Assembly (NCBI GenBank): GCA_029964075.1
Contig: CM057144.1
Location: 7,091,281-7,155,280 of the forward strand
Source: Patiria pectinifera
Taxonomy: Eukaryota > Echinodermata > Asteroidea > Valvatida > Asterinidae
Reading direction: 5' to 3'
DNA length: 64,000 nt
Shown: positions 1 through 40,505 of the stretch, in pieces
Numbering within the stretch: the stretch's first letter is position 1
Layout of the letters: each line of letters starts with the position of its first letter
Translations under genes and position numbers: made by a program
The notes under the pieces: generated by a model
Database searches by the model: none
Told to the model about the DNA's origin: nothing
Seen by the model: the letters and a program-made list of their open reading frames with translations, nothing else

Positions 1-8
1 AAATTGTA

Positions 9-234
9 ATGTCTGGTAAAAAAATTACCAGCTGGTTTAAACCTGCGCAAGCTTCTGCGGAAGAAGATGACGAGGATGAACAAACAGCTCATCCAAGCTC
101 TCAGCCTGACCCCGTACCTGCACCAAGCGAACCAAGGTCCGAAGCTCCATCGGCACCAGCCAAAAAGAAGAGGCGATCAGGATTCGACAAGAATTGGCCT
201 AAAGTGTATCCGTGGGTCCTTCAAACTGAAGACA
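9..234 (+). CDS. hAT transposase exon 1 (left arm)
   Basis: The exon opens at ATG (9) with MSGKKITSWFKP, then an acidic and proline-rich stretch, a basic KKKRR cluster that looks like a nuclear localisation signal, and the FDKNWPKVYPWV motif that precedes the zinc finger in KIAA1586/ZNF862-like proteins. The donor at 235 leaves one base. It joins the acceptor at 2318 in phase and gives a Ser codon. Without splicing, the frame ends at 251. Confidence 0.7.
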
Positions 235-1156
235 GTTTGTATAATCAATAGTCCTTTTTTTTTTTTACAGAATTGGAATCAATCCTAATTTAAGCGGGTT
301 TTTAACAAATATCTCAAATTTGATAAGCGGGATAGATCATGCAAATATAAAAAAACCGTATGTATACTGGGGGTTTATCGCAGGTGCGATTGTAGACGTG
401 AATCTTAATCTTAAACACGGCGAACGACGTTATTCTTGCCGACTCTCCGCCCTGATGGCCTCCTTAACTTTTACACATTTCACTACCAAAAGATTTGGAT
501 CATTTGGTGTTTGTTGTCAACGTAAACAAAGTTTTGAAAATGAACCCAAAATGTAAGATTTGCATGTTGGACAGTGGGCGTAGCTTCACAGCGTGCACTG
601 CGCTGGGGCTTCATGCAGGCAAAACGTCACACAGACACGCAGTATACAAAATAAAGTTCTTACAAACACGTGTCGTATGTTTGGTATATCGCGCAGAACA
701 CGGCCGGGTGTCACGTCGCCTCTGTTCAAACCACGCCCACGGTACATTGAGTAGCATTGGAAAAAACCAGGTGCTCTGGAACCGGAAGATAACGCAATGG
801 GAATGTTTTATCCAATGGGCGCTAGTATTCAGTGGCATGATGCGCGCGCATGTATGACGAAGTCACTAACGACCGACTCGACGAAGTCCGCTTTTGGTGT
901 TACGGTGTATTTTACGATACTGTGCATCAACAGTAATTATCAAGACGTAACAACTCACTAATCAAATTTTCGCTCGCAGACAGGGCCGAATCGTGCACAC
1001 ATTCGAGCCAACGATCCTTACTGTCTATGCATGCAGGGATCAAGCTCTTTGAAAATTAATAATCAAATTGAAGACACGCTGCACTGCTCAGACTCAGTTT
1101 ACTATGCACCGGACTTTTATATTTAATTTCAAAAGAAACCACAAAGAGAAACAGAT
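235..1156. other. Intron 1 of the hAT gene, upstream of the LINE (left arm)
   Basis: No recognisable protein is seen. The 120-codon ORF at 495-857 matches nothing I know and is not supported by codon use. The mirror copy at 39350-40270 differs only slightly. Confidence 0.5.
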
Positions 1157-1760
1157 ATGAACGACCCGCACACCACAGAAAAGCTTGCTCATGCGTTTAT
1201 TACTTGTCACCTAGATTTTTGCAACAGTTTACTTCAAGGGCTACCAGACTCACAAATCGCCAAACTCCAACGCATCCAAAACTCAGCTGCAAGACTAGTC
1301 ACCCTCTCGAAGCCCCATCAACCCATATCACCTATTCTGCGTAATCTGCACTGGCTCCCAGTCAACAGGAAGATAATCTACAAAACCCTTCTCCTAACAT
1401 GCAAATGTCTACATCGTCTCGCCCCTACTTACCTCCAGCAATTAATCCATAAATATGAACCTCGTAGAAATCTTTGATCATGCTCACAATCCCTACTCGC
1501 CTGCTCCTCAACATCGACAAGGTCATACGGTCAGCGAGCGTTTTCATCCTGCAGCCCCAACCCTCTGGAACAAACTACCCAATCACATCAAGGAAGCCCC
1601 AACCCTGGACATTTTCAAAGCTAATCTTAAAACCCATCTGTTCACTGCAAATGATATACAATGTTAGTGTTTTCCTCTGTTAATTGTTCAGCGCATTGGG
1701 ACCCCATGTAAAATGCGCTTTATAAGAATGGTTTATTATGATTATTATTATTATGAAAAA
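1157..1760 (+). mobile_element. CR1/L2-type LINE 3' fragment (left arm)
   Basis: The fragment encodes the extreme C-terminus of a non-LTR reverse transcriptase: FCNSLLQGLPDSQIAKLQ, then QNSAARLVT, then LHWLPVNRKIIYK. A frame change near 1470 leads to the downstream motif APTLWNKLPNHIKEAP. The 3' end has GCGCTTTATAAGAATGG followed by a TTATTATTA microsatellite, the usual tail of CR1/L2 elements. It is truncated at the 5' end, lies in intron 1 in the same orientation as the hAT gene, and cannot move by itself. Confidence 0.8.
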
Positions 1761-1769
1761 ATGGCTTCT

Positions 1770-2317
1770 AAAGATTATTACAATGTACATAAGAAAAGAA
1801 AAGATACCCGGGCCCGAAATGGAAAACGACTTTGTGGTAATCTTACAAAAACATTAAGCGGGGATGGTGTGGGGTTTTTTTGGGGGGGGGGTCGGCTTTT
1901 TTTTTTTTCCTCAAAAGGAAAGCAGTTTTGCTCGATCACGCCAAACTCAAATGAGGTATGGGTTTCGAATTTCACGGTTTTTTAAAGTATTCTTTTAAAC
2001 CCTTACTCCCTAGGGGGTGTACAAAATTGTATTGAATTTTGAGGATTCAGGACTGTTAGGGCCAGCGTATATTAACTCAAATAATTGCTAGAAAAAAAAT
2101 CATGTTTAGAAAAATGTGTTAACTTACAAATTACGGTCCGCTGAGGCGATGTACATGTACATGTACATGTAGGCCTACTTTACAAACCGAATTGTCAAAC
2201 TAGGACGCGTATGTGTATTTTTACTATTTTGCAATGTAATAAAAACTTTGAATTTCCGCTATTCTTTTTCGCATCCCGCCCCTTATTTTGTATGTTTTCC
2301 TTCAATTCTTCTTGTAG
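1770..2317. other. Rest of hAT intron 1 with homopolymer-rich tract
   Basis: This is non-coding. It holds long T and G runs (1865-1912) and a GTACAT simple repeat (about 2151-2172). The mirror region is 38191-38744. Apparent ORFs over the homopolymers are not credible. Confidence 0.6.
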
Positions 2318-2676
2318 GTGGTGGTATGATTTGTTCCTGGTGTACAAAATTCAGATTGAAAGCCAAGTCAGGTTCTGGGATTTGGACGTCCACTCCTTGC
2401 GTGTCTATGGTCAAGCAAAGCCTTGACAGACACTGGTCATCGGAAATGCATAAAACAGCTGAGCAAATGGAGGCAGCAAGAAAACAAGCTGAGGAACATG
2501 GGGGAGTTGAAGAAGCTCTTGCCGAGCAGACTAGCTTGCAAAAGATGGCCTTCGTGACTGCTCTCCGTCTCCTGTACTGGTTGGCTAAGGAGGAAATTGC
2601 GCATACAACCAAGTTTCCTTCACAAGTGGAACTTGTCCAACAATGTGGGGTGACACACCTGCAACACGTGCGAGTG
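2318..2676 (+). CDS. hAT transposase exon 2, TTF/BED-like zinc finger (left arm)
   Basis: The acceptor TTCTTGTAG precedes 2318. The exon encodes a CSWC...DRHWSSEMH zinc-finger pattern, then an amphipathic alanine/glutamate-rich helix (AEQMEAARKQAEEHGG) and the LLYWLAKEEIAHTTKFPS segment typical of this family. A donor (GTATG) follows at 2677. Bases 2638-2676 differ by several indels from the mirror copy, so the exon end and its phase into exon 3 are uncertain. Confidence 0.65.
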
Positions 2677-2849
2677 GTATGTTTTTTTGTTTGTTTTATT
2701 TGTTACTCTTTGTGTATCTACATTTTTGTTCCGTGTTCTTTTTTTTTGGGGGGGGGGGTGGTTTTAACAAGTTATTTTTCCCTTTTACATCGGATGTTTG
2801 TGGAACTGGGAAAACAGTTTAATATTAAAAAATGCTTGAATTTGACGCT

Positions 2850-4842
2850 TTTTATGTAAAAGGTGACAACGCCTTCTACAGGAGTGAGACTGCCCTCCAA
2901 GAAATGTTAGAGTCTTTGTCGAGCGTAGTAAGTGCAGACATATATGCCCGTGTAGCCGGTAGTAAGTGTTTCAGCTTACTGTGTGACGAAACAACTGATG
3001 TTGCTATTCTTAAGCAACTCATCATATATGGACGCTATATGGATGATCAAGGACAGGTAAATGTCTGCAAGATATTTTTTTCATATTCGTTCATTTGGGC
3101 CTCTAAATCTGATAGTACATTCGCACAATTTTTGAATTTTACATATTTTTACACAAAATTGTACAACAGGTGCAGACTAACTTCTTGACGATTCAGGACA
3201 TACCAGAAGGTACAGCTGAAGTGGTCACAAAGGAACTACAAAAGTTCATGGCAGACAAGAACTTGGACAAGGATAAGTTTGTTGGGTTTGGATCTGATGG
3301 TGCAAGCGTAATGGTTGGGGCACACAGTGGAGTAAGATTTTTACCTTTTCAATTTAGTTTGGTGGAGATATTCTCGTATTATAACGTAAATTTTGTTGCA
3401 AAATTGTTGCTAAACTGGTAGTTATGACAATCTGTTCATGTTATTTGTAGGTCTCAGCTCGGCTGAAACAGGAATCACCAAGCCTAATCAATATCCACTG
3501 TGTGGCTCATCGTCTCGCACTTGCTGCTGCTCAGGCTTCTAATGGAATTCCGTATCTCCAGCGTTTCAAAGTGAATCTGGCAGCAATATTCTCGTTCTAC
3601 AACAGGTCCACTAACAGATCAGCTTCACTACATGCCATCCAGGTGAAATTGTGACGTGCATATTTCAATTGCAATTTTGCATCAAAATATTAGCATTTCC
3701 ATTTGTATCATAATTTGGCAAATTACCATCACGTTTGACTAAATAAAGTCATTGTTACACTTATTCATTGTGATTCTGTGATTTGCAGCGCATAATGAAT
3801 GATCCAGAGCTGAAAATTGCTCAGGCAAAAGATGTAAGATGGCTGTCACATCAGCGCAGCCGAGACAGTGTCAGGCGATGTTTGCCTTCCTCTCTACAAG
3901 CGTTGAAGAGGAAGCAGCCAAGATGATCCCAAAGCAGTAGGAATACTTGCTTTCATGAAGTCATTCAAATTTGTGGCAACACTGATGATGCTCAGTGACG
4001 TCCTCCCGCACCTGACAAGACTTTCTCTGATTTTCCAGGTAATAACCTATCATTTTGCTTTCTGCATATAAAACAGAGTGCACTACTGTGCATCCATCCT
4101 ATTTGTTTGTACTTCAAACTTCTTAAATTCCATTTTTTTTGTGGGGTCAAGAAAGCTGATGTTGACTTTGCTCTGGTGGACGTAGAGTTGTGCACGCCAC
4201 CATCAGTGCAATTGAGCGACTGATGGACCACCGCGGCAAACATATGACCAGCCTACCAAAACAAATGGAATCTTTGGCAGAATTCAGTGTTACGATGCCC
4301 GAAGATGGGATGGAAAAATTCACCCGTGAGGTAAATTATAAATATTTGGTTTGCACTGGTTAACAATGATAATGCACATCCGATTCTGACAACTTATTTT
4401 TTCCTCAGAGAATTACCAGTGAAAATCGGAACATATTTTTTCCAATATTTGTTTGTCTACTAAACAGATCTGCAACAAGTACATCACAAATGTGGTGAAA
4501 AACATCAGGGATCGGTTCCCGGACACTGGCCTCATCAGTAAGTTCTCCTGCTTCCACTTCCAGAGTGAAGGGGAAGCACAGACAAACATGGATGATTTGC
4601 AGGTAAATGTGTAATCAATCAGACACTAATTTAAAATATTACAAAAAAGTACAGTGATTAGACATTAACCTGGAAGATAGGGTGTTTTATAAACAAATTC
4701 CACATTTGTTTAGTTCCAAAAATCTTTATTCATATTTTAGGTTCTTTGTGACCATTATCAGAACACCGTTATCACCCCACGCCGTAAAGGCTTTCGCACT
4801 AAGGCTGCAGATTCATCTCGTGCAAATACCCCTACGTTATAA
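2850..4842 (+). pseudogene. hAT transposase exons 3-9, catalytic core (left arm, broken)
   Basis: Exons with GT-AG borders lie near 2865-3056, 3170-3331, 3451-3642, 3789-4038, 4152-4330, 4468-4602 and 4741-4842. In order they carry LLCDETTD (first catalytic Asp), GFGSDGASVMVG (second Asp region), IHCVAHRLALA (CxxH motif) and DVRWLSH (the conserved Trp of the hAT fold). Exon 6 is two bases shorter than its tandem copy (5696-5947, 84 clean codons) and exon 7 two bases longer (177 in the copy), so frames are lost. The last exon ends at TAA after about 34 codons, with no hAT C-terminal dimerisation domain. This is a dead or deletion-derived transposase. Confidence 0.75.
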
Positions 4843-4864
4843 TTTCATCCTGGCTAGAACCCTG

Positions 4865-4872
4865 GTTAAAAC
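4865..4872. repeat. hAT target-site duplication (left arm)
   Basis: GTTAAAAC lies immediately after the 3' terminus of the left-arm hAT copy. Its partner would lie upstream of the window. Confidence 0.8.
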
Positions 4873-5095
4873 CCTTAGATTATTTCGCACTGCTTCTAGA
4901 CGACAGCAAGACGGTCAATCGCATCGACTTTGTCAACGAAGAAGTCGTGCAAGCACAATGGCAGCACAAGGAAGTCTTTGTGGAGACGGCGGGGAATACA
5001 AACATGGCCATTGCTGCCTACACTATGGCCCAAGCCTGGTTGAAACTTTACTCTTCTCTGGGGCATCTCGGCGATAGGGTGCTGTACGACACTAT
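4873..5095 (+). pseudogene. Polinton-type DNA polymerase B fragment (left arm, copy 1)
   Basis: After the target duplication the frame reads LDYFALLLDDSKTVNRIDFV, then EEVVQAQWQHKEVF and NTNMAIAAYTMAQAWLKLYS, all expected of the palm region of Polinton polymerases. It stops at the duplication breakpoint just before motif C. The phase differs by one base from the upstream part, so either a base was lost or the copy carries an indel. Confidence 0.75.
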
Positions 5096-6764
5096 CGATT
5101 CAGGACATACCAGAAGGTACAGCTGAAGTGGTCACAAAGGAACTACAAAAGTTCATGGCAGACAAGAACTTGGACAAGGATAAGTTTGTTGGGTTTGGAT
5201 CTGATGGTGCAAGCGTAATGGTTGGGGCACACAGTGGAGTAAGATTTTTACCTTTTCAATTTAGTTTGGTGGAGATATTCTCGTATTATAACGTAAATTT
5301 TGTTGCAAAATTGTTGCTAAACTGGTAGTTATGACAATCTGTTCATGTTATTTGTAGGTCTCAGCTCGGCTGAAACAGGAATCACCAAGCCTAATCAATA
5401 TCCACTGTGTGGCTCATCGTCTCGCACTTGCTGCTGCTCAGGCTTCTAATGGAATTCCGTATCTCCAGCGTTTCAAAGTGAATCTGGCAGCAATATTCTC
5501 GTTCTACAACAGGTCCACTAACAGATCAGCTTAGCTTCATGCCATCCAGGTGAAATTGTGACGTGCATATTTCAATTGCAATTTTGCATCAAAATATTAG
5601 CATTTCCATTTGTATCATAATTTGGCAAATTACCATCACGTTTGACTAAATAAAGTCATCGTTACACTTATTCATGGTGATTCTGTGATTTGCAGCGCAT
5701 AATGAATGATCCAGTGCTGAAAATTGCTCAGGCAAAAGATGTAAGATGGCTGTCACATCAGCCAGCTGTAGACAGTGTCAGGCGATGTTTGCCTTCCCTC
5801 TCTACAAGCGTTGAAGAGGAAGCAGCCGAAGATGATCCCAAAGCAGTAGGAATACTTGCTTTCATGAAGTCATTCAAATTTGTGGCAACACTGATGATGC
5901 TCAGTGACGTCCTCCCGCACCTGACCAGACTTTCTCTGATTTTCCAGGTAATAACCTATCATTTTGCTTTCTGCATATAAAACAGAGCGCACTACTGTGC
6001 ATCCATCCTATTTGTTTGTACTTCAAACTTCTTAAATTCCATTTTTTTTTGTGGGGTCAAGAAAGCTGATGTTGACTTTGCTCTGGTGGACGCAGTTGTG
6101 CACGCCACCATCAGTGCAATTGAGCGACTGATGGACCACCGCGGCAAACATATGACCAGCCTACCAAAACAAATGGAATCTTTGGCAGAATTCAGTGTTA
6201 CGATGCCCGAAGATGGGATGGAAAAATTCACCCGTGAGGTAAATTATAAATATTTGGTTTGCACTGGTTAACAATGATAATGCACATCCGATTCTGACAA
6301 CTTATTTTTTCCTCAGAGAATTACCAGTGAAAATCGGAACATATTTTTTCCAATATTTGTTTGTCTACTTAACAGATCTACAACAAGTACATCACAAATG
6401 TGGTGAAAACATCAGGATCGGTTCCCGGACACTGGCCTCATCAGTAGTTCTCCTGCTTCCACTTCCAGAGTGAAGGGGAAGCACAGACAAACATGGATGA
6501 TTTGCAGGTAAATGCAGTAATCAATCAGACACTAATTTAAAATATTACAAAAAAGTACAGTGATAAGACATTAACCTGGAAGATAGGGTGTTTTATAAAC
6601 AAATTCCACATTTGTTTAGCAAGCACAATGGCAGCACAAGGAAGTCTTTGTGGAGACGGCGGGGAATACAAACATGGCCATTGCTGCCTACACTATGGCC
6701 CAAGCCTGGTTGAAACTTTACTCTTCTCTGGGGCATCTCGGCGATAGGGTGCTGTACGACACTA
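5096..6764 (+). repeat. Tandem duplication, copy 2 with internal deletion (left arm)
   Basis: This is a direct copy of 3187-5095 that lacks the bases equivalent to 4713-4955. The deletion removes the last hAT exon, the hAT terminus and the start of the polymerase segment, with the join at about 6619. Its exons at 5696-5947 and 6062-6238 are cleaner than those of copy 1. Polymerase coding continues past 6764. Confidence 0.9.
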
Positions 6765-7262
6765 TCGTAAACTTTTCAGACGACAGAGTGGATCCGTACG
6801 TACCCCCTCTGGGTGACTATTTGGGAGATTTGACGGACAAGCTAGAAAAAGAGTACGGTATGGGCAGTTATATTACCAAATTTGCTTTTGGTGGGCCCAA
6901 CAATTATGGGTACACCTCAAGTTAAGGTCCATGGCATAATCCTCAAGTACTAAAACGCTTGTATTGTCAACTCTACATGGTTAAAAGGGATGGTTTAAGA
7001 GATGGTTTTAATGGACGGGGATGCAGGCAACGGAGAAGATGAGGAGGAACAGGACAAGTGGACAGTCACTGAACCCCATAAAATTGCCAGGGCAGCGTTT
7101 GGCCAAGTGATAACCAGGTGGGAGAACAAGACCTATAGGCTGGTTTTCACAAAAAGCATCAAAACCTGTGACTTCAACACACTTCCTTATGGATACTGGG
7201 CAGAATGCCCTCGATCACCATTCATCACTAATAATAATAGTAATCATGGTAATACTTACTAA
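6619..7262 (+). pseudogene. Polinton-type DNA polymerase B C-terminus (left arm)
   Basis: The frame runs NTNMAIAAYTMAQAWLKLYS, then the motif C neighbourhood, PPLGDYLGDLTDKLE, FGGPNNYGY, VKVHGIILKY, and ends in TLPYGY (7196), the usual polymerase C-terminus. The canonical DTDS of motif C is damaged (YDTIVNFSDD), there are stops near 6954 and 6987, and the normal stop after PYGY is replaced by an extension to 7262. This is a non-functional relic of a Polinton-like element. No integrase, ATPase, protease or capsid gene was seen. Confidence 0.8.
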
Positions 7263-7614
7263 AGTAGTAATAAATTCACAACCAACAAAATAATAAAAAA
7301 GCCCATTTAACAATCCAGATTGTGTATGACCGCATTGAGGTAACAAGTCAACAACGTGGCGCCTCATGCTCCATATGCCATCAACAGCGGTCTAGCATTA
7401 AAGCAAGGAACACCGCAAGCACGTACAGCTCAACATCAATCTGGCATCTCAAATACAGAGGGCGCCCTTTCAAGATGTGACACAGCTCTGTCTACCTCGT
7501 CAGTTTATCATCAAAGTTTCCGTCTAACTTTGCGACTGAATCTGCATTTGAGTGAGTTTTTAACTGACTGTTGAATCCACTGTTACCCTTATTTCACTGT
7601 TATTGCCACTCAAT
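7263..7614. other. Non-coding stretch between polymerase relic and second hAT-like gene
   Basis: This A/T-rich sequence has no recognisable product. The 72-codon ORF at 7356-7574 matches nothing I know and is broken in the mirror copy (32700-33060). Confidence 0.5.
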
Positions 7615-7748
7615 ATGCCGCCGAGAAGGGATAACAAATCTGTCACGGATACAGCATTGAGCACTGTTCCCGCAATGGCCATGCTTGCGGATGCGCTAGA
7701 TACAACAAGCCAAGACACCAGCGATGTTTGTCCTCTGGGTCAACTTGG
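7615..7748 (+). CDS. Possible first exon of the second hAT-like gene
   Basis: An ATG at 7615 opens MPPRRDNKSVTDTALSTVPA and continues for 44 codons to a good donor (GG|GTAAGT at 7749). It lies upstream of the degraded hAT-like core and on the same strand. The mirror copy is frame-shifted. The link to the downstream exons is inferred from position only. Confidence 0.35.
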
Positions 7749-7969
7749 GTAAGTATGATGTCAACCTCACAATTGCCAGAGTAAGAACTTCCTTTGATGA
7801 GTGAGCAGGTGCGAAGATAACTGATGTTGCAACCAAAAAATCATGCGTCCGACAATTGAACTGATCATGTGGTTGCCCACCTGGCACCCTTACTCCAGGC
7901 AAGGACCTACCATTAATAATTATAACAATTGTATATTCAAGCTCAAAAAGATTTGGTTTCTTTAACCCA

Positions 7970-9175
7970 CAGACAAGAGAATAATAGAAGAGGTGAGATT
8001 GTGTTCACGAGATTCTTGAACCATGAGTGTGTACCGAGACAAAATTCATATCATTGAGTCAGTCCACAAGGGAGATGCTCAACAGCTAAAGGTCTCAAAG
8101 GTACGTTGTTGAATCAGCTTAGAGAAGAAAGTCGACTGTAATGACTGGCGTGAAAAACTTGTAGGAATTTCGACAGATGGGGCAGCTGTAAACTTTTGAT
8201 GTAGAGAAGGTCTTGTTGCCAAATTGCGTACAAAAATTCCCCACCTCATTGGAATTAGATGTTGCACTCACAGATTGGAGCTGGCACTAAAGGATGCAGC
8301 TCGTAAGTCAAAATTGTGGGACACAATTGATGCTTTCCTGTCCAACTTGTACACATTTCATCACTACTCCTCCCTGAACATGGATGGTCTCATGGAAGCT
8401 GACAAGGCCCTGAAAATAACTATCAATTGACCAGGAAACATCTGGGGCACACGCTGGGTTCCCACCGACACAGAGCATTGCTGGCAGTGGACCGAGACTG
8501 GCTAGCTGTGGCTAACCATCTGTCCCAGGTAGCAATGGGTACAAATGAAACTGCTGCCAAGGCAAAAGGTCTCCATCTGACACTTGTATCAGTTTGGCTT
8601 TGAAGTTCTTCAGTATCTGTAGAACCATAAGTGAGGTTCTCCAGGACAACGACTCATCAGTGGAAACTGTGTACACCACCCTGCATGCTGCACAGCTCAA
8701 GTAAGCCTCTGACCGATTTGATGCCAAGGGAGCGCTGAAATCCTTTGTCGAAAAGGATCTTGTTGTAACAGAGACTGATGTCATGTACAGAGGCGAGAGT
8801 CTAAAGCTACAGTCAGGGGGTTCTAGGGGAAGACAACACACACTTGACACAGCTCTGGAGGATGTAGAAAAGAGCGTCAGTTGCATGGTATCTGCCACTG
8901 CAGAGGCTCTCAATCAGAGGTTTGCCTCATTTAATGACCCTGTACTAAAAGCTTTGCGAGTATTTGAGCCAACGAACTGGCCTCATGACATTAAAGTGTT
9001 AGCAGATTTTGGAACTACTGAGATTCAGACCATCAGTAACCATTTCAGTGATCTGCTGATTAGGAATGGCACTGATATAACTTCAATGGAAATTGAATTG
9101 ACCCAGCTACTACTATCATGCAGAGAGCTGAAAAGGGAACAACCCGACAAAAAAAAATTTGCCCAAAACAAATGA
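7970..9175 (+). pseudogene. Second KIAA1586-like hAT-domain gene, degraded (left arm)
   Basis: Across several frames the sequence reads KLVGISTDGAAVNF, then KIPHLIGIRCCTHRLELALK (CxxH motif), then WGTRWVPH with the conserved Trp, and finally a 130-codon ORF (8783-9175) with VSATAEALNQRFASFNDPVL and WPHDIKVLADFG. These are blocks of KIAA1586-like, hAT-derived proteins. It is distinct from the first transposase in sequence and seems intronless in this part. Stops and frameshifts between blocks make it a pseudogene. Confidence 0.7.
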
Positions 9176-9179
9176 GTGA

Positions 9180-9731
9180 ATTCTAGAGAAAAAAAATGTG
9201 GAAATGAGGCATCTCTTCTACAGACTTTCTAAATTGCCTAAACTTTAATCACAAAGGGTTTTTTGCCCAAAAGGAGGAGAGGACTCAGTCCTAGAACAGC
9301 AATAGAGAGACTGACAATTTGGAGGCACACCTTGAGTGGAAGTTCGTTTTTTTTTCATCCACATTGTTCGACTTGTTTCAGAGATGTTTTGCATGCCATT
9401 CACTGAATGTTACGACATAAGGATGAAGAGGTCATATGACACCTATGTGTCTATAACCCAGGAATGCAACACGGTGACAGTGACACGTTCATGCGGGAGA
9501 GCCAGCCAGTCTATGGCTGCAGTCCCGGCAGGTAAGTTTTAGCTTGCAGCTGCAACGTTATTTGCAGATGGGAGCTGCACCACTATGCTGCGTCCCTCAA
9601 ACTCAGGAAGTTTGCAGCCATTGGCAGAAAGGGCTTTCATAAACACTGGCCGAGTGTTTCCAAAATGTGGTGCACTTATCTCAGTGACTAAAACGGATCT
9701 TATTTTCTTTTATTCTGTGAAATTTTGACTT
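9180..9731. other. No recognisable gene (left arm)
   Basis: This is low-complexity, mixed-composition sequence. Nothing beyond short shadow ORFs is visible. The mirror region is about 30450-31030. Confidence 0.5.
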
Positions 9732-10010
9732 GTGGCAGTTATGGCCATGTCTAAAGTGCTTGAAGATGCACTTGATCTTGGGAATGAAATGCTAGTTCAA
9801 ACACTAGTCAGTGCTTTTGAAAATGCTTCTGTAGCTGAGCCCACTGTTGGGTCTCCCTTCATAAATTCGGAGGCGAATGTTGATAATCTTGTAAGGGATA
9901 TTGTAGGCATACTCACAGATAGTAATGCGTTGCTAGTCAACAGTGTAAGCTCATTAAATTTAGGGCACGTTACCTCCATCCACGGACTTCACTTCATTAC
10001 CGTAAGATGA
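9732..10010 (+). CDS. Unrecognised 92-codon ORF
   Basis: It reads MAVMAMSKVLEDALDLGNEM and continues with an acidic, aliphatic composition suggestive of helices. I recognise no family. It stands on the same strand as the P2X7-like fragment downstream and could be an exon of the same gene, but the mirror copy (30190-30440) does not keep the frame, which weakens the case. Confidence 0.25.
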   Translation: MAVMAMSKVLEDALDLGNEMLVQTLVSAFENASVAEPTVGSPFINSEANVDNLVRDIVGILTDSNALLVNSVSSLNLGHVTSIHGLHFITVR

Positions 10011-10434
10011 AATTTAGGAAAAAATGTCATACAAAACACAGCACTTGTGGCAAGTCTACTTGGGCACTGCACAAGGAAAAGAAGAGCCAGTTGTGGGCCT
10101 GGGTGACAAACAGATTTTCGTATACAGCTTATAGACAGTATAAAAGTGGCCTATGGTGGTTTTGGAGGAGATTTTGAAGTTTCTCAGAGTGGTGAATGAA
10201 GTTGCTTTTTAGAATTCTTATGCAACATATAAGTGATATAGCATAACAAGAACTAGTGGAGACAGTCTGCTTTCTTTATATTCTAAACAAAAAGAAATGG
10301 AAGATATACAGTACATATTTTTTTTATGGATAATTATTACTTGCCTTTCCCACTTCTGGTCAACTACCGAAACTAAGTCAATGAGCTGTTACATTGCATT
10401 CACACAGAATGATACAGCCAAATAAGAGGGGGAA
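10011..10434. other. No recognisable gene (left arm)
   Basis: This stretch is A/T-rich and non-coding. The mirror region is about 29640-30180. Confidence 0.5.
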
Positions 10435-10680
10435 GTGAGGTGCCTGCTCCTTCAATCTGCAGAGAGAAGCCCTGGTCTAATAATAGACATACTACACGCA
10501 CAGCAGCATCCACAACCACCACAAGCAGTGCCTCAGAATGGCTTGGAATGGTGTGTCTGCAGCAATTGTCAACAGATGCTCGCAGAACTGATGCAGAATG
10601 TATCTGCTATGGTCTGAAACCTGAAGATTGCCTTTCAAATGAACCAGTGCGTTGTTTCAACATCATAATTAAAGCGTCCA
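10435..10680 (+). pseudogene. P2X7-like cysteine-rich domain fragment (left arm)
   Basis: One frame reads NGLEWCVCSNCQQM. After a frameshift near 10575 the next frame reads ECICYGLKPEDCL. The pattern W-C-x-C-x2-C ... C-x-C ... C resembles the zinc-binding start of the P2X7 intracellular (ballast) domain, which occurs as a stand-alone module in many invertebrate proteins. The expected remainder is absent: the tyrosine-recombinase retroelement starts right after it, so the exon may have been split by that insertion. Family assignment rests on the cysteine spacing only. Confidence 0.45.
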
Positions 10681-10850
10681 CAATACGGTTTTCTCCGTGT
10701 GCTCGTCTCCGGAGAACCCCTTTGGGCACAGGGGGCGTGAGTGGCCATTCTAACAGCCTCTCTCTTTGTAGGCAAGAAATCGCTTTGGGGATCTCTGATT
10801 GGTCCGTTTTGCTGCAGCCTTGGCACACTTTCAACCATCCCTGCGGGGGA

Positions 10851-10860
10851 ACTATATAGG
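10851..10860 (+). promoter_or_regulatory. TATA-like box of the left YR retroelement
   Basis: ACTATATAGG lies upstream of the Gag-like region in a G/C-richer leader. The mirror copy near 29215 has lost the TATATA, so only this copy retains it. Use as a promoter is inferred. Confidence 0.35.
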
Positions 10861-11079
10861 CAGGCTGGCAATGTTTCATGCTTTTTCTCCCTTTTCTGCT
10901 TGCTTTGTCGAGCCTAATACACGATGCAAATTAAAAATCCTCCGTATCTTCGGCTGATAATTTTCGACTTCTTCTGACCGCCCTAAGAACCCTTGTGATT
11001 AGTGCTGGTAACAGAGGCCGGCAGCGCAAGAAACCCAAGGGACGGCGGATGAAGCGGGAAAACGCCCTCTAGGGGCCAT

Positions 11080-14240: not shown

Positions 14241-14269
14241 TGCGAGTAGTACTTTGGGGAACATATAGC

Positions 14270-15175: not shown

Positions 15176-15229
15176 TAACTGTAACATGTCATTTTGCATC
15201 CCCGGTTCTGCTCTTGTTTTTGCTTAACT

Positions 15230-24877: not shown

Positions 24878-24887
24878 GTTACAGCTG

Positions 24888-25743: not shown

Positions 25744-25759
25744 GCCCTTGCTATATGTT

Positions 25760-29640: not shown

Positions 29641-31029
29641 TCATTTATTTGGCTGTATCATTCTGTGTGAATGTAATGTAAACAGTTCATTGACTTAGTT
29701 TCGTGAAGCTTGATTCAGAAGTGGGAAAAGGCAAGTAATAATTATCCACAAAAAATATGTACTGTATATATATCTTCCATTTCTTTTGTTTAGGAATATA
29801 AAGAAAGCAGACTGTCTCTACTAGTTCTTGTTATGCTATATCACTTATATGTTGCATAAGAATTCTAAAAGCAACTTCATGCACCACCACTTCCTCTTAA
29901 CCCTACTTAGGTTATTTACTCTGAGAAATTTCAAATCTCCTCCAAAACCACATCATAGGCCACTTCTTATACTGGCTGTCTCTAAGCTGTATTACTTATA
30001 ATCTGTTACTACCCAGGCCCACAACTGGTTTCCCTCTCTCTTCTTCTTCTTTTCCTTGTGCAGCTGCCCAAGTAGACTTGCCAGCCACAAGTATCTATCA
30101 GCAGTTTTGTATGACATTTTTCTAAAATGTCATCTTACGGTAATGAAGTGAAGTCAGTGGGATGGAGGTAACGTGCCCTTAAATTCTAATTGAACTTCTT
30201 ACACTGTTGACTAGCAACGCATTACACATCTGGTGAGTATGCCTACAATATCCCCTTTACAAGATTATCAACATCTGCCCCGAATTTATGTAGAAGGAGA
30301 CTCAACAGTGGGCCTGGCAAAGCAACAGAAGCATTTCTCAAAAGCACTGACTTAGTGTTTGAACTAGCATTTCATTCCCAAGATCAAGTTCATCTTTCAC
30401 ACTTTAGACATGGCCATAACTGCTACAAGTCAAAATTTCACAGAATAAAAGAAAAAATAAAGATCCTGCTTTAGTTCACTGAGATAAGTGCACCACATTT
30501 CCTTTGGAAACACTCAGCCAGTGTTTTATAGAAAGCTCCTTTCACTAATGGCTGCAAATCTTCCTGAGTTTGAGGGGACGCAGCATAGTGGTGCAGCCCC
30601 CATCTGCAATAACGCGTTGCAGGCTGCAAACTGCAGCTTACCTGCCGGGATGCAGCCATAGACTGGCTGGGTTCTCCCACTTGACCAAACTGTCACTGTC
30701 ACATCGCAGTTGTATTCCCTGGGTTATAGACACACAGGTGTCTACAACCCTTTCCTTATTCGTGAAGATTCAGTGAGAATGGCACGCAGAAACATCCTCT
30801 GAAACAAGCTCGAACAATGTGGATGAAACCGAACTTCCACTCAAGGCGTAGCCTCCAAATTGTCAGTCTCTCTATTGCTGTCCTAGGGACTGAGTCCCTC
30901 CTCCTTTTGGGGAAAAAAAAACCCACAGATTAAAGCTTTTTTCTGGGCAATTTAGAAAGTCTGTAGAAGAGATACCCTCATTTCCACATTTTTTCTTCTC
31001 TAAGAATTCACTCATTTGTTTTGGGCAAA

Positions 31030-32330
31030 TTTTTTTGTCGGGTTGTTCCCTTTTCAGCTCTCTCTGGGCATGATAGTAGTAGCTGGGTTACATTCAATTT
31101 CCATTGAAGTTATATCAGTGCCATTCCTAATCAGCAGATCACTGGAAATGGTTTACTGATGGTCTGGATCTCAGGTGCAGTTCCAAAATCTGGTACACTT
31201 TAATGTCAGTGAGGCCAGTTCATATTGGCTCAAATACTGCAAAGCTTTGGGGGGTACAGGGTCATTAAATGTGAGGCAAACTTCTGATTGAGAGCCCTCT
31301 GCAGTGGCAGAGACACTATGCAAATCGGACACTTCTTCTTCATCCTCCAGAGCTGTGTCAAGTGTGTGTTGTCTTCCTGGAACTCCTGATCTGTAGCTTT
31401 TTAGACTTCCTCGCCTCTGGTACTTAACTAAGTATCAAGTCTCTCTGTTGGCAACAAGATCCTTTTCGACAAGCGATTCTCAGCGCCTCCTTGGCATCAA
31501 ATCGGGTCAGAGGCTAACTTGAGCTGTGCAGCATGCAGGGTGGTGTACACGGTTTCCACTGGATGAGTCGTTGTCCTGAAGACTCTCACTTATGGTTCTA
31601 CAGATACTGCAGAACTTCAAAGCCACATGCAACATGGAAAGCACAAAGTGGAACTGATACAAGTGTCAGATGGAGACCTTTTGCCTTGGCAGCAGTTTCA
31701 TTTCTACCCATTGCTACCTGGGACAGATGGTTAGCCACAGCTAGCCAGTTCCAGGGTCCGCTGCACAGCAATGTGCTCTGTGTCGGTGGGGACCAGCCGT
31801 GTGCCCCAGATGTTTCCTGGTCAATTGATAGTTATTTTCAGGGCCTTGTCAGCTTCCATGAGACCATCCATGTTCAGGGAGGAGTAGTGATGAAATGTGT
31901 ACAAGTTGGACAGGAAAGCATCAATTGTGTCCTACAATTTTGACTTACATGTACAAGCTGGGCATCCTTTTAGTGCCAGCTCCATCTGTGAGAGTGCAAA
32001 CATCTAATTCCAATGAGGTGGGGAATTTTTTGTACGCATTTGGCAACAAGCACCTTTCCTCTCACATCAAAAGTTTACAGCTGCCCCATCTGTCGTAATC
32101 CTACAAGTTTTTCACGCCAGTCAATATAGTCGTGACTCTTCTTCTCTAAAGCTGAACCTAACGTACCTTTAAGACCTTTAGCTGTTGAGCATCTCCCTTG
32201 TGGACTGACTCCAATGATATGGGAATTTCCTTGTCTCTCGGGTACACACTTCATGGTTCAAGAATCTCGTGAACACAATCTCCTCTTCTATTATTCTCTT
32301 GTCTGTGGGTTAAAACCAAAATCTTTTGAG
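31030..32330 (-). pseudogene. Second KIAA1586-like hAT-domain gene, degraded (right arm)
   Basis: This is the mirror of 7970-9175. The blocks are recognisable only in short pieces because indels are denser here. Confidence 0.65.
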
Positions 32331-33087
32331 CTTGAATATACAATTTTTATAATTATTAATGCAGGTCCTTTGTCGAGAGGTAAGGAAGCCTGTGGGTGGC
32401 AACCACAGTCAGTTCAATTGTCGGACGATGATTTTTTGGGTTGCAATCGTTATCTCGCACTCTGCTCATCCTTATCAAAGGAAGTTCTTACTCTTGGCAG
32501 CAATTGTGAGGTTGACATCATATCATCGCCTGCTTGACCCAGAGACAAACATCGCTGTGTCTGGCTGTTGTATCTTAGCGCATCCTCCAAGCATGGCTTC
32601 ATTGCGGAACAGTGCTCAGTGTTGTACCCGTGACAGATTTGTTAGTCCTTCAAGTGGCATATTGAGTGGCAATAACAGTGAAATAAGGCTAACAGTGGAT
32701 TCAAAAGTCAGTTAAAACTCACTCAAAATGCAGATTCAGTCAGCAGTTAGACAGAAATTTTGATGATAAACCGACGAGGTAGACAGAGCTGTGTCACATC
32801 TTGAAAGGGCGCCTCTGTATTCGATGATGCCCGATTGATGTTGAGCTGTAATGCGTGTTTATGCAGTGTTCCTGCTTTTAATGCTAGGACCGCTGTTAAC
32901 ATGGCATATGGAGTACATGAAGTGCCAACGTTGTTGACTTGTTACTCTCACGCGGCCGGCATACAATCTGGATTGTTAAATGGGCTTTTTATTAGTTTGT
33001 TGGTTGTGAATTTATTACAACGGCTATACATAAGTATTACTATTATTATTAGGTGGTGAATGATGCATCGAGGGGCATTCCTGCCCA

Positions 33088-33695
33088 GTATCCAAGCAGC
33101 GGAAGTGTGTTGAAGTCCCGGTTTTGACGCTGCTGTGAAAACCAGCCTATAGGTCTGTTCTCCCACCTAAGGTTATCACTTGGCCAAACGCTGTTCCGGC
33201 AATTTTATGGTGGTTCTATGACTGTCCGCTTGTACTGTTCCTCCTCATCTTTCACTCCATTGCCTCGCATCGCGCCTCGTTAAAACCATCTCTTTAAAAC
33301 TATCCCTTTTAACCATGTAGAGTTGACAATACAAGCGCTTTAGTAGCTGGGAGGATTATGCCATGGACCTATAATTTCTGAGGTGTACCTTATAATTGTT
33401 GGGCCCACCAAAAGGTATAAATTTGGCAATATAACTGCCCATACCGTATCTCTTTTTTCTAGCTTGTCCGCACAAATCTCCCAAATAGTCACCCAGAGGG
33501 GGTACGTGACGGATCCACTCTGTTGTCTGAAAGTTTACGATAGTGTCGTGACAGCACCCTATCGCCTGTGGTAGATGCCCCAGAGAAGAGTAAAGTTTCA
33601 AACTACAGGCTTGGGCCAAAGTGTAGGCAGCAATGGCCATGTTTGTATTCCCAGCCGTCTCCATAAAGTATTTCCTTGTGCTGCACATTGTGCTT
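33088..33695 (-). pseudogene. Polinton-type DNA polymerase B C-terminus (right arm)
   Basis: This is the mirror of 6619-7196. PPLGDYLGDL and GGPNNY are still readable near 33420-33520, and the C-terminal block near 33090-33160 is frame-shifted. Confidence 0.7.
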
Positions 33696-35296
33696 GCATA
33701 AACAAAATGTGGGAATTTGTTTATAAAACACCCTATCTTCTCCAGGTTAATGTCTTATCACTGTATACTTTTTGTAATATTTTAAATTAGTGTCTGATTG
33801 ATTATGAGCATTTCACCTTGCAAATCATCCATATATAAAGTTTGTCTGTGCTTCCTTCTACTCTGGTGAAGTGGAAGCAGGAGAACTTTACTGATGAGGC
33901 CAGTGTCCGGGAACCGCATCCCTGATGTTTTTCACCACATTTGTGATGTACTTGTTGTAGATCTGTTTAGTAGACAAACAAATATTGGAAAAATATGTTC
34001 CGATTTTCACTGGTAATTTCCTCTGAGGAAAAAAATAAGTTGTCAGAATCGGATGTGCATTATCATTGTTAACTGCAGTGCAAACCAAATATTTATGTAT
34101 TTAATTCACGGGTGAATTCTTTTTCCATCTCCATCTTCTCGGGCATCGTAACACTGAATTCTGCTGCAAAGATTCCATTTGTTTTGGTAGGCTGGTCAGC
34201 AGGTGTTTGCCGCGGTGGTCCATCAGTCGCTCAATTGCACTCGATGGTGGCGTGCACAACTGCGTCCACCAGAGCAAAGTCAACATCAGCTTTCTTTGAC
34301 CCCACAAAAATGGAATTTAAGAAGTTTGAAGTACAAACAATAGGATGGATGCACAGTAGTAGTGCAATTTCTGTTTTATATGCAGAAAGCAAAATGATAG
34401 GTTATTACCTGAAAATCAGAGAAAGTCTTGTCAGGTGCGGGAGGACGTCACTGAGCATCATCAGTGTTGCCACAAATTTGAATGACTTCATGAAAGCAAG
34501 TGCATTCTACTGCTTTGGGATCATCTTCGGCCGCTTCTCTTCAACGCTTGTAGAGAGGGAAGGGCAAACATCGCCTGACACTGTCTACGGCTTCTGCTGA
34601 TGTGACAGCCAATCTTACATCTTTTTGCCTGAGCAATTTCCCTAAAGCACTGGATCATTCATTATGCGTTGCAAATCACAGAATCACAATGAATAAGTGT
34701 AACAATGACTTTATTTAGTCAAACGCGGATGGTAATTTGCCAAATTATGATACACAAATGGAAATGCTAATATTTTGATGCAAAATTTGCAATTGAAATA
34801 TGCACGCCACAATTTCACTCTGGATGGCATGTAGTGAAGCTGGATCTGTTAGTGGACCTGTTGTAGAACGAGAATATTGCTGCCAGATTCACTTTGAAAC
34901 GCTGGAGATACGGAATCTGGCATTAGAAGCCTTGGGAGCAGCAGTGGGCAAGCGAGACGATGAGCCACACAGTGGATATTGATTTTCAGGCTTGGTGATT
35001 CCTGTATCAGCCGAGCTGAGACCTACAAATAACATGAACAGATTGTCAAGTAACTACCAAGTTTGGCAACAATTTTGGCAAAAAAATTTACGCTATATAA
35101 TACGAGAATATCTCCACCAAACTAAATTGAAAAGGTAAAAATCTTTACTCCACTGTGTGTGCTCCCAACCATTACGCTTGCACCATCAGATCCAAAACCC
35201 AACAAACTTATCCTTGTCCAAGTTCTTTGTCTGCCATGAATCCCTTGTAGTTCCTTTGTGACCACTTCAGCTGTACCTTCCTGGTATGTCCTGAAT
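33538..35296 (-). repeat. Tandem duplication, copy 2 (right arm)
   Basis: This is the mirror of 5096-6764 with the same internal deletion (join near 33695). The duplication therefore came before the inverted duplication of the arms. Confidence 0.85.
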
Positions 35297-35532
35297 CGAT
35301 AGTGTCGCACAGCACCCTACTCGCTCGAGATGCCCCAGAGAAGAGAGAAGTTTCAACCAGGCTTGGGCCGTAGTGCAGGCAGCAATGGCCATGTTTGTAT
35401 TCCCTACCGCCGTCTCCACAAAGACTTCCTTGTGCTGCCATTGTGCTTGCATGACTTCTTCGCTGACAAAGTCTATGCGATTGGACCGGGCTCTTGCTGT
35501 CGCTTCTAGAAGCAGTGCGAAATAATCTAAGG
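35297..35532 (-). pseudogene. Polinton-type DNA polymerase B fragment, downstream of the hAT (right arm)
   Basis: Directly beyond the target duplication the reading continues with DYFALL, a DSK block and a block around AMAAYT/AQAWLKL, as expected downstream of the part at 41668-42010. The fragment is cut by the tandem-duplication breakpoint at 35297. Several indels are present. Confidence 0.7.
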
Positions 35533-35540
35533 GTTTTAAC
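35533..35540. repeat. hAT target-site duplication, downstream copy (right arm)
   Basis: The plus strand reads GTTTTAAC, identical to 41660-41667. It lies directly outside the CAGGG terminus, and polymerase B coding sequence resumes beyond it. Confidence 0.85.
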
Positions 35541-35639
35541 CAGGGTTCTAGCCAGGATGAAATTATAGCGTAGGGGTATTTGCACGCAGATGAATCTGCG
35601 AGCGCTGAAGCGCCAAGCCTTTTACGGCGTGGGTGATAA

Positions 35640-37640
35640 CGGTGTTCTGATAATGGTCACAAAGAACCTAAAATATGAATAAAGATTTTTGGAACTAAAC
35701 AAATGTGGAATTTGTTTTATAAACACCCTATCTTCCAGGTTAATGTCTTATCACTGTACTTTTTTGTAATATTTTTAAATTAGTGTCTGATTGATTACAC
35801 ATTTACCTGCAAATCATCCATACTTGTTCTGTGTGCTTCCCCTTCACTCTGGAAGTGGAAGCAGGAGAACTCTTACTGATGAGGCCAGTGTCCGGGGAAC
35901 CGATCCCTGATGTTTTTCTACCACATTTGTGATGTACTTGTTGCAGATCTGTTTAGTAGACAAACAAATATTGGAAAAAAATATGTTCCGATTTTCACTG
36001 GTAATTCTCTGAGGAAAAATAAGTTGTCAGAATCGGATGTGCATTATCATTGTTAACCAGTGCAAACCAAATATTTATAATTTACCTCTTACGGGTGAAT
36101 TTTTCCATCCCATCTTCGGCATCGTGAACACTGAATTTCCTCTGTTAAAGATTCCATTTGTTTTGGTAGGCTGGTCATATGTTTGCCGCGGTGGTCCATC
36201 AGTCGCTCAATTGCACTGATGGTGGCGTGGCACAACCAAGCGCCCACCAGAGCAAAGTCAACATCAGCTTTCTTTGACCCCACAAAAAAATGGAATTTAA
36301 GAAGTTTGAAGTACAAACAATAGGATGGATGTACAGTAGTGCACTCTCTGTTTTATATGCAGAAAGCAAAATGATAGGTTATTACCTGAAAATCAGAGAA
36401 AGTCTTGTCAGGTGCGGGAGGACGTCACTGAGCATCATCAGTGTTGCCACAAATTTGAATGACTTCATGAAAGCAAGTATTCCTACTGCTTTGGGATCAT
36501 CTTCGGCTGCTTCCTCTTCAACGCTTGTAGAGAGGGAAGGCAAACATCGCTCTGACACTGTTCACGGCCTACAGCTGGATGTGACAGCCATCTTACATCT
36601 TTTGCCTGAGCAATCTTCTTTCTGGCCTCTGGATCATTCATTGATGCGCTTCGCAAATCACAGAATCACAATGAATATGTAATAATGACTTTATTTAGTC
36701 AAACGCGGATGGTAATTTGCCAAATTATGATACAAATGGAAATGCTAATATTTTGATGCAAAATTGCAATTGAAATATGCACGCCATAATTTCACCTGGA
36801 TGGCATGTAGTGAAGCTGATCTGTTAGTGGACCTGTTGTAGAACGAGAATATTGCTGCCAGATTCACTTTGAAACGCTGAGATACGGAATTCCATTAGAA
36901 GCCTGAGCAGCAGCAAGTGCGTAGACGATGAGCCACACAAAGTGGATATTGATTAGGCTTGGTGATTCCCTGTATCAGCCGAGCTGAGACTCCATACAAA
37001 TAATATGATGAACAGATTGTCATAAACTACCAGTTTAGCAACAATTTTGCAAAAAAATTTACATTATATAATACGAGAATATCTCCACCAAACTAAATTG
37101 AAAAGGTAAAAATCTTTACTCCACTGTGTGCCCTAAATCCGCCATTACGCTTGCACCATCAGATCCAAAACCCAACAAACTTATCCTTGTCCAAGTTCTT
37201 GTCTGCCATGAACTTGTGTAGGTTCCTTTTGTGACCACTTCAGCTGTACCTCTCTGGTATGTCCCTGGAATCGCCAAGAAGTTAGTTCAGAACCTGTTGT
37301 ACAATTTTGTAGTAAAAACATGTAAAATCTCAAAAATTGCAGCGTAATGTACTATCAGATTTAGAGGCCCAGTTTGAACTAATATGAAAAAATATCTTGC
37401 AGACATTTACCTCGTCCTTGATCAACATCCATATAGCGCTCCATATAGGCTGATGAGTTGCTTAAGAATAGCAAACATCAGTTATTTACTGGCCACACAG
37501 TAATAACATTTACTTACAATGAATAGTCGGGCAGTATATGGCGTCTGCACTTACTACGCCTCGACAAAGCACTCTAACATTTCTTGGAGGGCAGTCTCAC
37601 CTTGTAGAAGGCGTGCTGTCACCCTTACATAAAAAAGGCC
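35640..37640 (-). pseudogene. hAT transposase exons 3-9 (right arm, broken)
   Basis: This is the mirror of 2850-4842, with the same exon order and the same motifs in pieces (for example GFGSDGASVM near 37170). Small indels interrupt most exons. Downstream of the last exon the sequence passes straight into the hAT terminal region. Confidence 0.65.
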
Positions 37641-37810
37641 ACAATTCAAGCATTTTTTAATCATTAAACTGTTTTCTCCAGTTCCACAAACATCCGATGG
37701 AGTAAGGGAAAATAACTTGTTAAACCACCCCCAAAAAAAAAAAAAAAAGAACACGGAAATAAAATGTAGATACACAAAGAGTAACAAATAAAACAACAAC
37801 AAAAACATAC

Positions 37811-38190
37811 CACTTCTCGCACGGTTGCAGGTAGGTGTCAATTCCTACATTAAGATGTTGGACAAGTTCCACTAGTGAAGGAAACGTGGTTGTATGCGCA
37901 TTTCCTCCTTAGCCAACTAGTACAGAGAGACGGAGAGCAGTCACGGCGCTCGCCATCTTTTGCAAGCTAGTCTGCTCGGGCAAAGAGCTTCTCTTCAACT
38001 CCCCATGTTCCTCAGCTTGTTTTCTTGCTGCCTCCATTTGCTCAGCTGTTTTATGCATTTCCGATGACCAGTGTCTGCTGCAAGGCTTTGCTTGACCATA
38101 GACACGCAGGAGTGGACGCCCAAATCCCAGAACCTGACTTGGCTTTCAATCTGAATTTGGTACACCAGGAACAAATCATACTCACCTCAC
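37811..38190 (-). pseudogene. hAT transposase exon 2 (right arm, frame-shifted)
   Basis: This is the mirror of 2318-2676 but about 20 bases longer. The acceptor end reads with an extra purine-rich insertion, and the region before the donor has additional bases. The zinc-finger motif CSWC is still readable near 38150. Confidence 0.6.
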
Positions 38191-38744
38191 CTACAAGAAG
38201 AATTGAAGTGTTAAACATACAAATATAGGGATGATAAAAGAATAGCGGAAATTCAAAGTTTTTATTACATTGCAAAATAGTAAAAATACACATACGCGTC
38301 CTAGTTTGACAATTCGGTTTGTAAAGTAGGCCTAAATGTACATGTACATGTACATCGCCTCAGCGGACCGTAATTTGTAAGTTAACACATTTTTCTAAAC
38401 ATGATTTTTTTTCTAGCAATTATTTGAGTTAATATACGCTGGCCCTAACAGTCCTGAATCCTCAAAATTCAATACAATTTTGTACACCCCCTAGGGAGTA
38501 AGGGTTTAAAAGAATACTTTAAAAAACCGTGAAATTCGAAACCCATACCTCATTTGAGTTTGGCGTGATCGAGCAAAACTGCTTTCCTTTTGAGGAAAAA
38601 AAAAAAAGCCGACCCCCCCCCCCAAAAAAAAAACCCCACCATATCCCCGCTTAATGTTTTTGTAAGATTACCACAAAGTCGTTTTCCATTTCGGGCCCGG
38701 GTATCTTTTCTTTTCTTAGGCTATGTAATAATCTTTAGAAGCCA

Positions 38745-39349
38745 TTTTTTCATAATAATAGTAATCATAATAAACCATTCTTATAAAGCGCATTTTACAT
38801 GGGGTCCCAATGCGCTGAACAATTAACAGAGGAAAACACTAACATTGTATATCATTTGCAGTGAACAGATGGGTTTTAAGATTAGCTTTGAAAATGTCCA
38901 GGGTTGGGGCTTCCTTGATGTGATTGGGTGGTTTGTTCCAGAGGGTTGGGGCTGCAGGATGAAAACGCTCACTGACCGTATGACCTTGTCGATGTTGAGG
39001 AGCAGGCGAGCAGGGATTGTGAGCATGATCAAAGATTTCTACGAGGTTCATATTTATGGATTAATTGCTGGAGGTAAGTAGGGGCGAGACGATGTAGACA
39101 TTTGCATGTTAGGAGAAGGGTTTTGTAGATTATCTTCCTGTTGACTGGGAGCCAGTGCAGATTACGCAGAATAGGTGATATGGGTTGATGGGGCTTCGAG
39201 AGGGTGACTAGTCTTGCAGCTGAGTTTTGGATGCGTTGGAGTTTGGCGATTCGTGAGTCTGGTAGCCCTTGAAGTAAACTGTTGCAAAAATCTAGGTGAC
39301 AAGTAATAAACGCATGAGCAAGCTTTTCTGTGGTGTGCGGGTCGTTCAT
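38745..39349 (-). mobile_element. CR1/L2-type LINE 3' fragment (right arm)
   Basis: This mirror copy of 1157-1760 is almost identical (one Gln to Arg change in the first ORF). It has the same frame break and the same trinucleotide tail. Confidence 0.8.
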
Positions 39350-40270
39350 ATCTGTTTCTCTTTGTGGTTTCTTTTGAAATTAAATATAAAAGTCCGGTGC
39401 ATAGTAAACTGAGTCTGAACGCGCGGTACGCGTGTCTTCAATTTGATTATTAATTTTCAAAGAGCTTGATCCCATGCAGGCATAGACAGTAAGGATCGCT
39501 GGCTCAATGTGTGCACGATTCGCCCTGTACGCCAACGAAAATTTGATTAGTGAGTTGTTACGTCTTGATAATTACTGTTGATGCACAGTATCGCAAAAAT
39601 ACACCGTAACACCAAAACGGACTTCGCCGAGTCCGGTCGCAGTGACTTCACATACATGCGCCACATCATGCCACTGAATACTAGCGCCCATTGGATAAAA
39701 CATTCCCATTGCGTTATCTTCCGGTTCCAGAGCACGTGGTTTTTTCCAATGCTACTCAATGTACCGTGGGCGTGGTTTGAACAGAGGCGACGTGACACCC
39801 GGCCGTGTTCTGCGCGATATACCAAACATACGACACGTGTTTGTAAGAACTTTATTTTGTATACTGCGTGTCTGTGTGACGTTTTGCCTGCATGAAGCCC
39901 CAGCGCAGTGCACGCTGTGAAGCTACGCCCACTGTCCAACATGCAAATCTTACATTTTGGGTTCATTTTCAAAACTTTGTTTACGTTGACAACAAACACC
40001 AAATGATCCAAATCTTTTGGTAGTGAAATGTGTAAAAGTTCAGGAGGCCATCAGGGCGGAGAGTCGGCAAGAATAACGTCGTTCGCCGTGTTTAAGATTA
40101 AGATTCACGTCTACAATCGCACCTGCGATAAACCCCCAGTATACATACGTTTTTTTTTATATTTGCATGATCTATCCCGCTTATCAAATTTGAGATATTT
40201 GTTAAAAACCCGCTTAAATTAGGATTGATTCCAATTCTGTAAAAAAAAAAGGACTATTGATTATACAAAC

Positions 40271-40496
40271 TGTCTTCAGTTTGAAGGACCCACGGATACA
40301 CTTTAGGCCAATTCTTGTCGAATCCTGATCGCCTCTTCTTTTTGGCTGGTGCCGATGGAGCTTCGGACCTTGGTTCGCTTGGTGCAGGTACGGGGTCAGG
40401 CTGAGAGCTTGGATGAGCTGTTTGTTCATCCTCGTCATCTTCTTCCGTAGAAGCTTGCGCAGGTTTAAACCAGCTGGTAATTTTTTTACCAGACAT
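40271..40496 (-). CDS. hAT transposase exon 1 (right arm)
   Basis: This is the mirror of 9-234. It has the same length and the same product apart from one Ala to Thr change after PAQAS. Start, basic cluster and donor phase are as in the left copy. Confidence 0.7.
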
Positions 40497-40505
40497 TACA
40501 ATTTT

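Follow-up and report, generated by a model that had tools for sequence, protein, structure and literature searches.

The 64,000-nucleotide stretch of the Patiria pectinifera genome assembly (GCA_029964075.1, 613.5 Mb) analyzed here, referred to as the window (C16:7091281-7155280, scaffold C16, CM057144.1), contains an apparent giant palindrome whose arms face each other across a 500-N gap. This inverted duplication is present in the sequence but very probably not in the animal, and is best regarded as an assembly artefact. We place high confidence in an explanation by false duplication in a scaffolded long-read assembly, in which the overlapping ends of two contigs (referred to as A and C) would have been left unmerged, and a third contig (B), carrying the other haplotype, would have been placed between them in reverse.

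The Apparent Palindrome and the Contigs Beneath It

With flanks added, the sequence examined covers C16:6991281-7295280 (304 kb); coordinates below are those of the window, and negative coordinates lie to its left. Three contigs meet at the locus: A ends at 19223, B spans 19724-133363 (113640 bases), and C starts at 133864. Both gaps in the 304 kb consist of 500 N, one between A and B (19224-19723) and one between B and C (133364-133863). Within the window, the components of the supposed palindrome are:

1..19223, + strand, left arm: contig A up to its right-hand end, noisy from position ~10 kb onward and flush with the N gap
19224..19723, unstranded, 500-N scaffold gap: sole link of the two arms
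19724..20941, unstranded, "spacer": first 1218 bases of contig B, the reverse homologue of C at ~162980-161769, past the end of contig A
20942..40504, - strand, right arm: part of contig B and inverted homologue of 1-19223, noisy to ~38.2 kb and cleaner near 24-26 kb
40505..64000, - strand, contig B continued: likewise homologous, in inverted orientation, to contig A beyond the window's left edge; not unique flank

The inverted match of 1-19223 with 20942-40504 in the window self-comparison is far above chance. It is collinear, with 816 of its 901 indels only 1-3 bases long, and since the longest indel is only 32 bp, elements occur in the same order and with the same junctions in both arms. 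A reading made earlier from the letters of the window (the sequence-only reading) had described just such a duplication; its account of order and junctions holds, but the arms are only 86.0% identical, with 1122 mismatches and 901 gap openings. Its arm length of about 19 kb does not hold. The match stops on the outside at base 1, the edge of the window, and on the inside at 19223, the last base of contig A, so that neither end is a breakpoint, and the inverted homology continues leftward to A -53018.

Divergence is uneven along the arms. Their outer 2.3 kb differ by 31 mismatches in 2265 positions (1.4%) and 16 indels, while the remainder is noisy and the direction of its indels is blocky (322 runs, vs. 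440 +/- 14 when shuffled). An old palindrome with 14% divergence was rejected on these grounds. Of 15 open frames checked against the other arm, one alone, at 1127-1477 in the clean outer part, matched over its full length (99%). With a four-state segmentation, the arms could be divided only into clean/clean, right-noisy, and both-noisy blocks; the three-way count described below superseded it.

Contig Overlaps Across the Wider Locus

A query from beyond the reported palindrome (41000-43000) matched in reverse both just left of the window (98%) and 76 kb to the right (97%). The first of these matches belongs to a long inverted homology between contigs A and B, which pairs A -53018..19223 with B 98435..20942 in 23 aligned blocks and reaches past the window start to ~70 kb. 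As a chain it amounts to 63.4 kb in 24 blocks, one further short block being counted, compared with 1.3 kb for a direct-chain control. Beyond the right arm, the aligned blocks of contig B run up to 48352 and then cover 48541-48922, 49067-62410, 62402-62565, and 62561-64887. Identity between A and B is 93-98% at A -37.5 to -7.8 kb and 88% in the noisy stretch. The interval 45-60 kb had been proposed as unique flank for a read-depth control; 49.1-62.4 kb is itself duplicated left of the window at 95.7%, so a depth control on that interval would mislead.

The pairing of two inverted copies is confirmed, but the two-copy picture is incomplete, as a third copy lies at 133864-161768 (C16:7225144-7253048) in direct orientation relative to the left arm. 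Here A -8672..19223 corresponds to C 133864..161768 over ~28 kb, that is, from the first base of C to the last base of A, with both copies at contig boundaries beside a gap. This arrangement suggests a contig overlap that was left unmerged. The first base of B pairs with C 162980, within a B-C match of B 19724-48352 with C 162980-134706.

Among the best 40 candidates scored per search, A -30..-27 kb has two long copies, the A/B/C overlap three, and C 165-168 kb one, besides a 500-bp repeat and shorter pieces; within contig B, there are two for 99-102 kb, three for 118-121 kb, and two for 130-133 kb. Another 500-N gap occupies C16:5945108-5945607; the next contig begins at C16:5945608, ~1.2 Mb from the right end of B. 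At the three gaps, five of the six contig ends are in duplicated sequence, with homology that runs to the end of the contig concerned and no further. For the sixth, at C16:5945107, only short repeat matches were seen within the 304 kb examined.

Two further features of the A-B alignment were observed. About 5.3 kb of contig B between aligned blocks (C16:7163061-7168360, window 71781-77080) is absent from A, and would be a haplotype-specific insertion if B is an allele. In addition, a segment of A is present twice ~26 kb apart, at about -53018..-51056 and -79018..-77054, and has matches in B (93971-98435) and at C16 6.519-6.524 Mb.

Grouping of the Three Copies

The zone A -2200..2200 was picked for comparison after the three-way count showed all three copies to be clean there. 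In this zone, A and C differ by 12 substitutions in 4386 positions (0.27%), A and B by 61 in 4377, and B and C by 51 in 4372, which places B 1.2-1.4% from both others. A and C therefore look like copies of one haplotype and B like another version, most likely the other haplotype. The low A-C figure, together with local noise, is what would be expected of copies that differ by error rather than by haplotype variants.

Noise Near the Contig Ends

Much of the 14% divergence between the arms appears to be noise that is rich in indels and lies near contig ends, affecting now one arm and now the other, and probably represents read error; presumably it is of the kind seen in uncorrected PacBio continuous long reads. 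Outside the arms, six repeat pairs (at 46676, 48387, 54711, 56854, and 57934, and the tandem pair 44069/44868) showed 33 gap openings to 171 mismatches, whereas the arms have 901 to 1122 (Fisher p = 2e-16); three of the six are self-inverted, each difference in them being counted twice, and this flank control leaves out four more repeat pairs (6 gap openings and 51 mismatches in total) and seven minisatellite rows. An internal control is provided by a tandem duplication within the arms:

3189..6767, + strand, 1.9-kb tandem duplication, two units: with 33538-37264 in the right arm, four copies in all

The left-arm pair of tandem copies is 98.4% alike, and the right-arm pair 89.4%, with 69 gap openings. 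When each copy was compared with the other three, the left copies had 0 and 1 private insertions and the right copies 20 and 31; for private substitutions the counts were 6 and 10 on the left and 39 and 59 on the right.

The three-way alignment of A, B, and C covers ~24 kb, with C taken from 137700 and its first 3.8 kb left out. Private insertions, deletions, and substitutions number 187, 126, and 724 in A; 306, 129, and 1097 in B; and 62, 36, and 150 in C, so that insertions exceed deletions overall. Noise in A begins at about 10 kb and lasts to its end (10-19 kb); in B it sets in at the position of A's 2 kb and goes on inward, interrupted by a cleaner part at A 14-17 kb. The three bins closest to the start of contig C hold half of its private insertions (31 of 62).

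The Outer Part of Contig B and Other Stretches of C16

The outer part of contig B has counterparts elsewhere on the scaffold. The last 3363 bases of B match C16:5972575-5975967 (+) at 97% over their entire length; B 118-121 kb pairs with two places, C16 5.961-5.964 Mb in + orientation (98%) and C16 6.488-6.491 Mb in - orientation (99%); B 110-113 kb matches adjacent places in both C16 regions (5.95-5.98 and 6.488-6.525 Mb) at 91%; and B 99-102 kb matches C16 6.515-6.518 Mb (-) at 92-98%. The contig starting at C16:5945608 matches B from 103729 at that contig's very first base, the direct match having been sampled at four B stretches between 103729 and 133363 rather than aligned throughout. The right end of B thus appears to overlap that contig by ~30 kb, as the end of A overlaps C.

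If B is flipped, its outer part is oriented like C16 6.49-6.52 Mb and its inner part like A and C. Taken together, C16:5945608-5975967 and C16:6487781-6525280 match the outer half of B in opposite orientations, mostly at 85-99%, and similar false palindromes may therefore occur elsewhere in 5.9-7.3 Mb. A heterozygous inversion of ~1.1 Mb (C16 5.94-7.04 Mb) was considered and withdrawn, given the gap and the flush contig overlap at 5.945 Mb. The misfit of the outer part of B may reflect either a structural difference between haplotypes, more misplaced contigs in 6.53-6.99 Mb, or a real local duplication cluster.

Weighing the Explanations

In the explanation by false duplication, A and C would follow one another on one haplotype, with ~28 kb of overlap at their ends that was never merged (a homotype duplication at a contig boundary), and B would be the other haplotype of that stretch (a heterotype duplication). 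A scaffolder writing 500-N gaps would have set B between A and C in reverse, and this placement would give the palindrome its appearance. Contig ends built on few reads would have retained raw-read errors, which would make the arms look only 86% identical.

Several observations weigh against this explanation. The differences between A and C are not zero, and 10 of the 12 substitutions are transitions. In the tandem control, 28 columns set both left copies apart from both right copies, which counts against a pure-error reading, and the ratio of gaps to mismatches shows no difference between the left (10:14) and right (69:62) pairs (p = 0.38). Substitutions are the commonest private class and outnumber indels in the noisy parts, and private deletions exceed insertions in four kilobase bins (12 and 18 kb for A; 11 and 17 kb for B), so that the noise is not purely of the insertion type. 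Beyond ~A -38 kb, A-B identity falls to 75-93%, and large stretches do not align. For B 98-133 kb, no long match turned up in A as far as -100 kb; its matches lie instead at C16 6.488-6.525 Mb and C16 5.95-5.98 Mb. An allele of the simple kind should align with A along its whole length, so this outer part counts against B being such an allele. At B 118-121 kb, moreover, the 6.49-Mb copy is closer (99%) than the end-overlapping contig (98%), so that B and the C16:5945608 contig need not represent the same haplotype where they overlap.

The sequence-only reading had offered a choice between a real palindrome and an assembly or chimeric-read artefact, and it is the artefact that the evidence favors, although probably not one of the fold-back kind. 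A real inverted segmental duplication of 30-70 kb, with a third copy in direct orientation and an assembler that broke inside near-identical copies, would account for three copies on one scaffold, and assemblers do break in long repeats. Parts of the locus (B 93-133 kb) likewise have copies of 85-99% identity at other places on C16, and away from the gaps the homology of A with B dies out within contigs, with no single breakpoint. Beside the gaps, however, the ends of homology are the ends of contigs, A and C form a dovetail overlap of almost identical sequence (0.27% difference), and noise like that of raw reads lies close to contig ends. The sampled A and B stretch has two long copies and C past the overlap has one (again among the best 40 candidates), as a diploid predicts. 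We therefore regard a real duplication as improbable. Much the same doubt attaches to a version in which B is a real neighboring inverted copy, and C16 5.9-7.3 Mb a recently expanded cluster of segmental duplications with inverted members and differing transposable-element content that was falsely duplicated and broken in the assembly.

A fold-back (palindromic) long read or a missed adapter, in which a contig end is built from both strands of one molecule, would be consistent with the indel-rich noise in the arms, and palindromic read artefacts have reportedly been described after whole-genome amplification (PMC6218980). The arms, however, sit on two contigs with a gap between them, B is 113.6 kb long and continues into other sequence, and the clean parts of the arms differ by 1.4% (61/4377), which is unexpected from one molecule. 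Such an origin is very unlikely.

Comparison With Known Palindromes and False Duplications

Palindromes of the primate or sex-chromosome type are continuous in single molecules, and their arms are usually >99% identical. The locus resembles them in its long inverted arms flanking a spacer. It differs in that no contiguous sequence in this assembly runs from arm through spacer to arm, the gap that the sequence-only reading rightly took as a warning sign being confirmed at 19224-19723, and in that the gap-side boundaries of homology coincide with contig ends rather than lying inside contigs as arm-to-unique junctions. Gaps of 500 N are also written by scaffolders other than 3D-DNA. A 3D-DNA assembly, that of red raspberry, is described with 500 N between contigs (PMC8926247).

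For long-read vertebrate assemblies, passages of two reports describe heterotype duplications as well as homotype duplications at contig boundaries, the latter about a read long and differing in consensus quality (PMC8081667; PMC9516828); a figure legend states that scaffolding of a homotype false duplication yields tandem duplicates with a gap between them (Rhie et al., 2021, PMC8081667). As far as these passages define it, our locus shares with the homotype class (PMC8081667) a near-identical contig-end overlap, unequal consensus quality, and a gap between copies, and differs in that contig B is inserted between the two overlapping ends. It would share with heterotype false duplication, or undercollapsed heterozygosity, a second-haplotype contig retained beside its homologue (PMC8081667; PMC9516828; PMC6421076). 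Unlike the cases in those passages, the contig here is inverted, hence the look of a palindrome, and is known from sequence, while read depth and k-mers define the type. Similarly, for Aedes aegypti AaegL5, contigs ordered by Hi-C are described as overlapping extensively in sequence, in keeping with alternative haplotypes (PMC6421076).

Elements and Repeats in the Window

Pfam searches with 20 open frames gave matches for two, all below the curated cut-offs. One of the two is the following:

24940..25854, - strand, tyrosine-recombinase-like retroelement frame of 304 aa, open in the right arm; its left-arm counterpart is separated by indels

This frame matched two integrase N-terminal domain families, Phage_int_SAM_1 (E = 0.0017) and, more weakly, another (E = 0.046), and a search of the PDB returned a single match, Tre recombinase (E = 0.65). 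Compared with the left arm, it shows 45 indels, 39 of which are not multiples of three. The other frame, 24248-25021 (-), matched a GDSL lipase family (GDSL-hydrolase-like, E = 3.7e-6). The tyrosine-recombinase-like frame is thus followed by a GDSL-hydrolase-like one, with left-arm counterparts at ~14.2-15.9 kb, a pairing (24248-25854) that we take to resemble Ngaro/DIRS-type retroelements.

The 1.9-kb tandem duplication (3189-6767 and 33538-37264) consists of an exon-intron-like unit with peptides such as FVGFGSDGASVMVG, which we presume to recall hAT-transposase-like genes; Pfam searches with pieces of the unit gave no match. A minisatellite at 53596-54109 (12-bp unit, 42.8 copies) has 0% indels, a sign that contig B is clean there. 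Self-inverted elements of ~170-600 bp at 54711-54878, 56854-57451, and 57934-58176 are probably foldback/MITE-type repeats. Rfam (at the gathering threshold) and tRNA scans of the whole window found nothing.

Implications

The signature of such a false duplication can be read from sequence alone, in homology that stops exactly at contig ends, indel-rich noise confined to those ends, and the grouping of copies in a three-way comparison. For P. pectinifera, its recognition removes a spurious palindrome from C16. With unmerged overlaps and second-haplotype contigs, counts of genes, transposons, and copy numbers are probably inflated at the sampled parts of C16 (5.95-5.98, 6.49-6.53, and 7.04-7.25 Mb).

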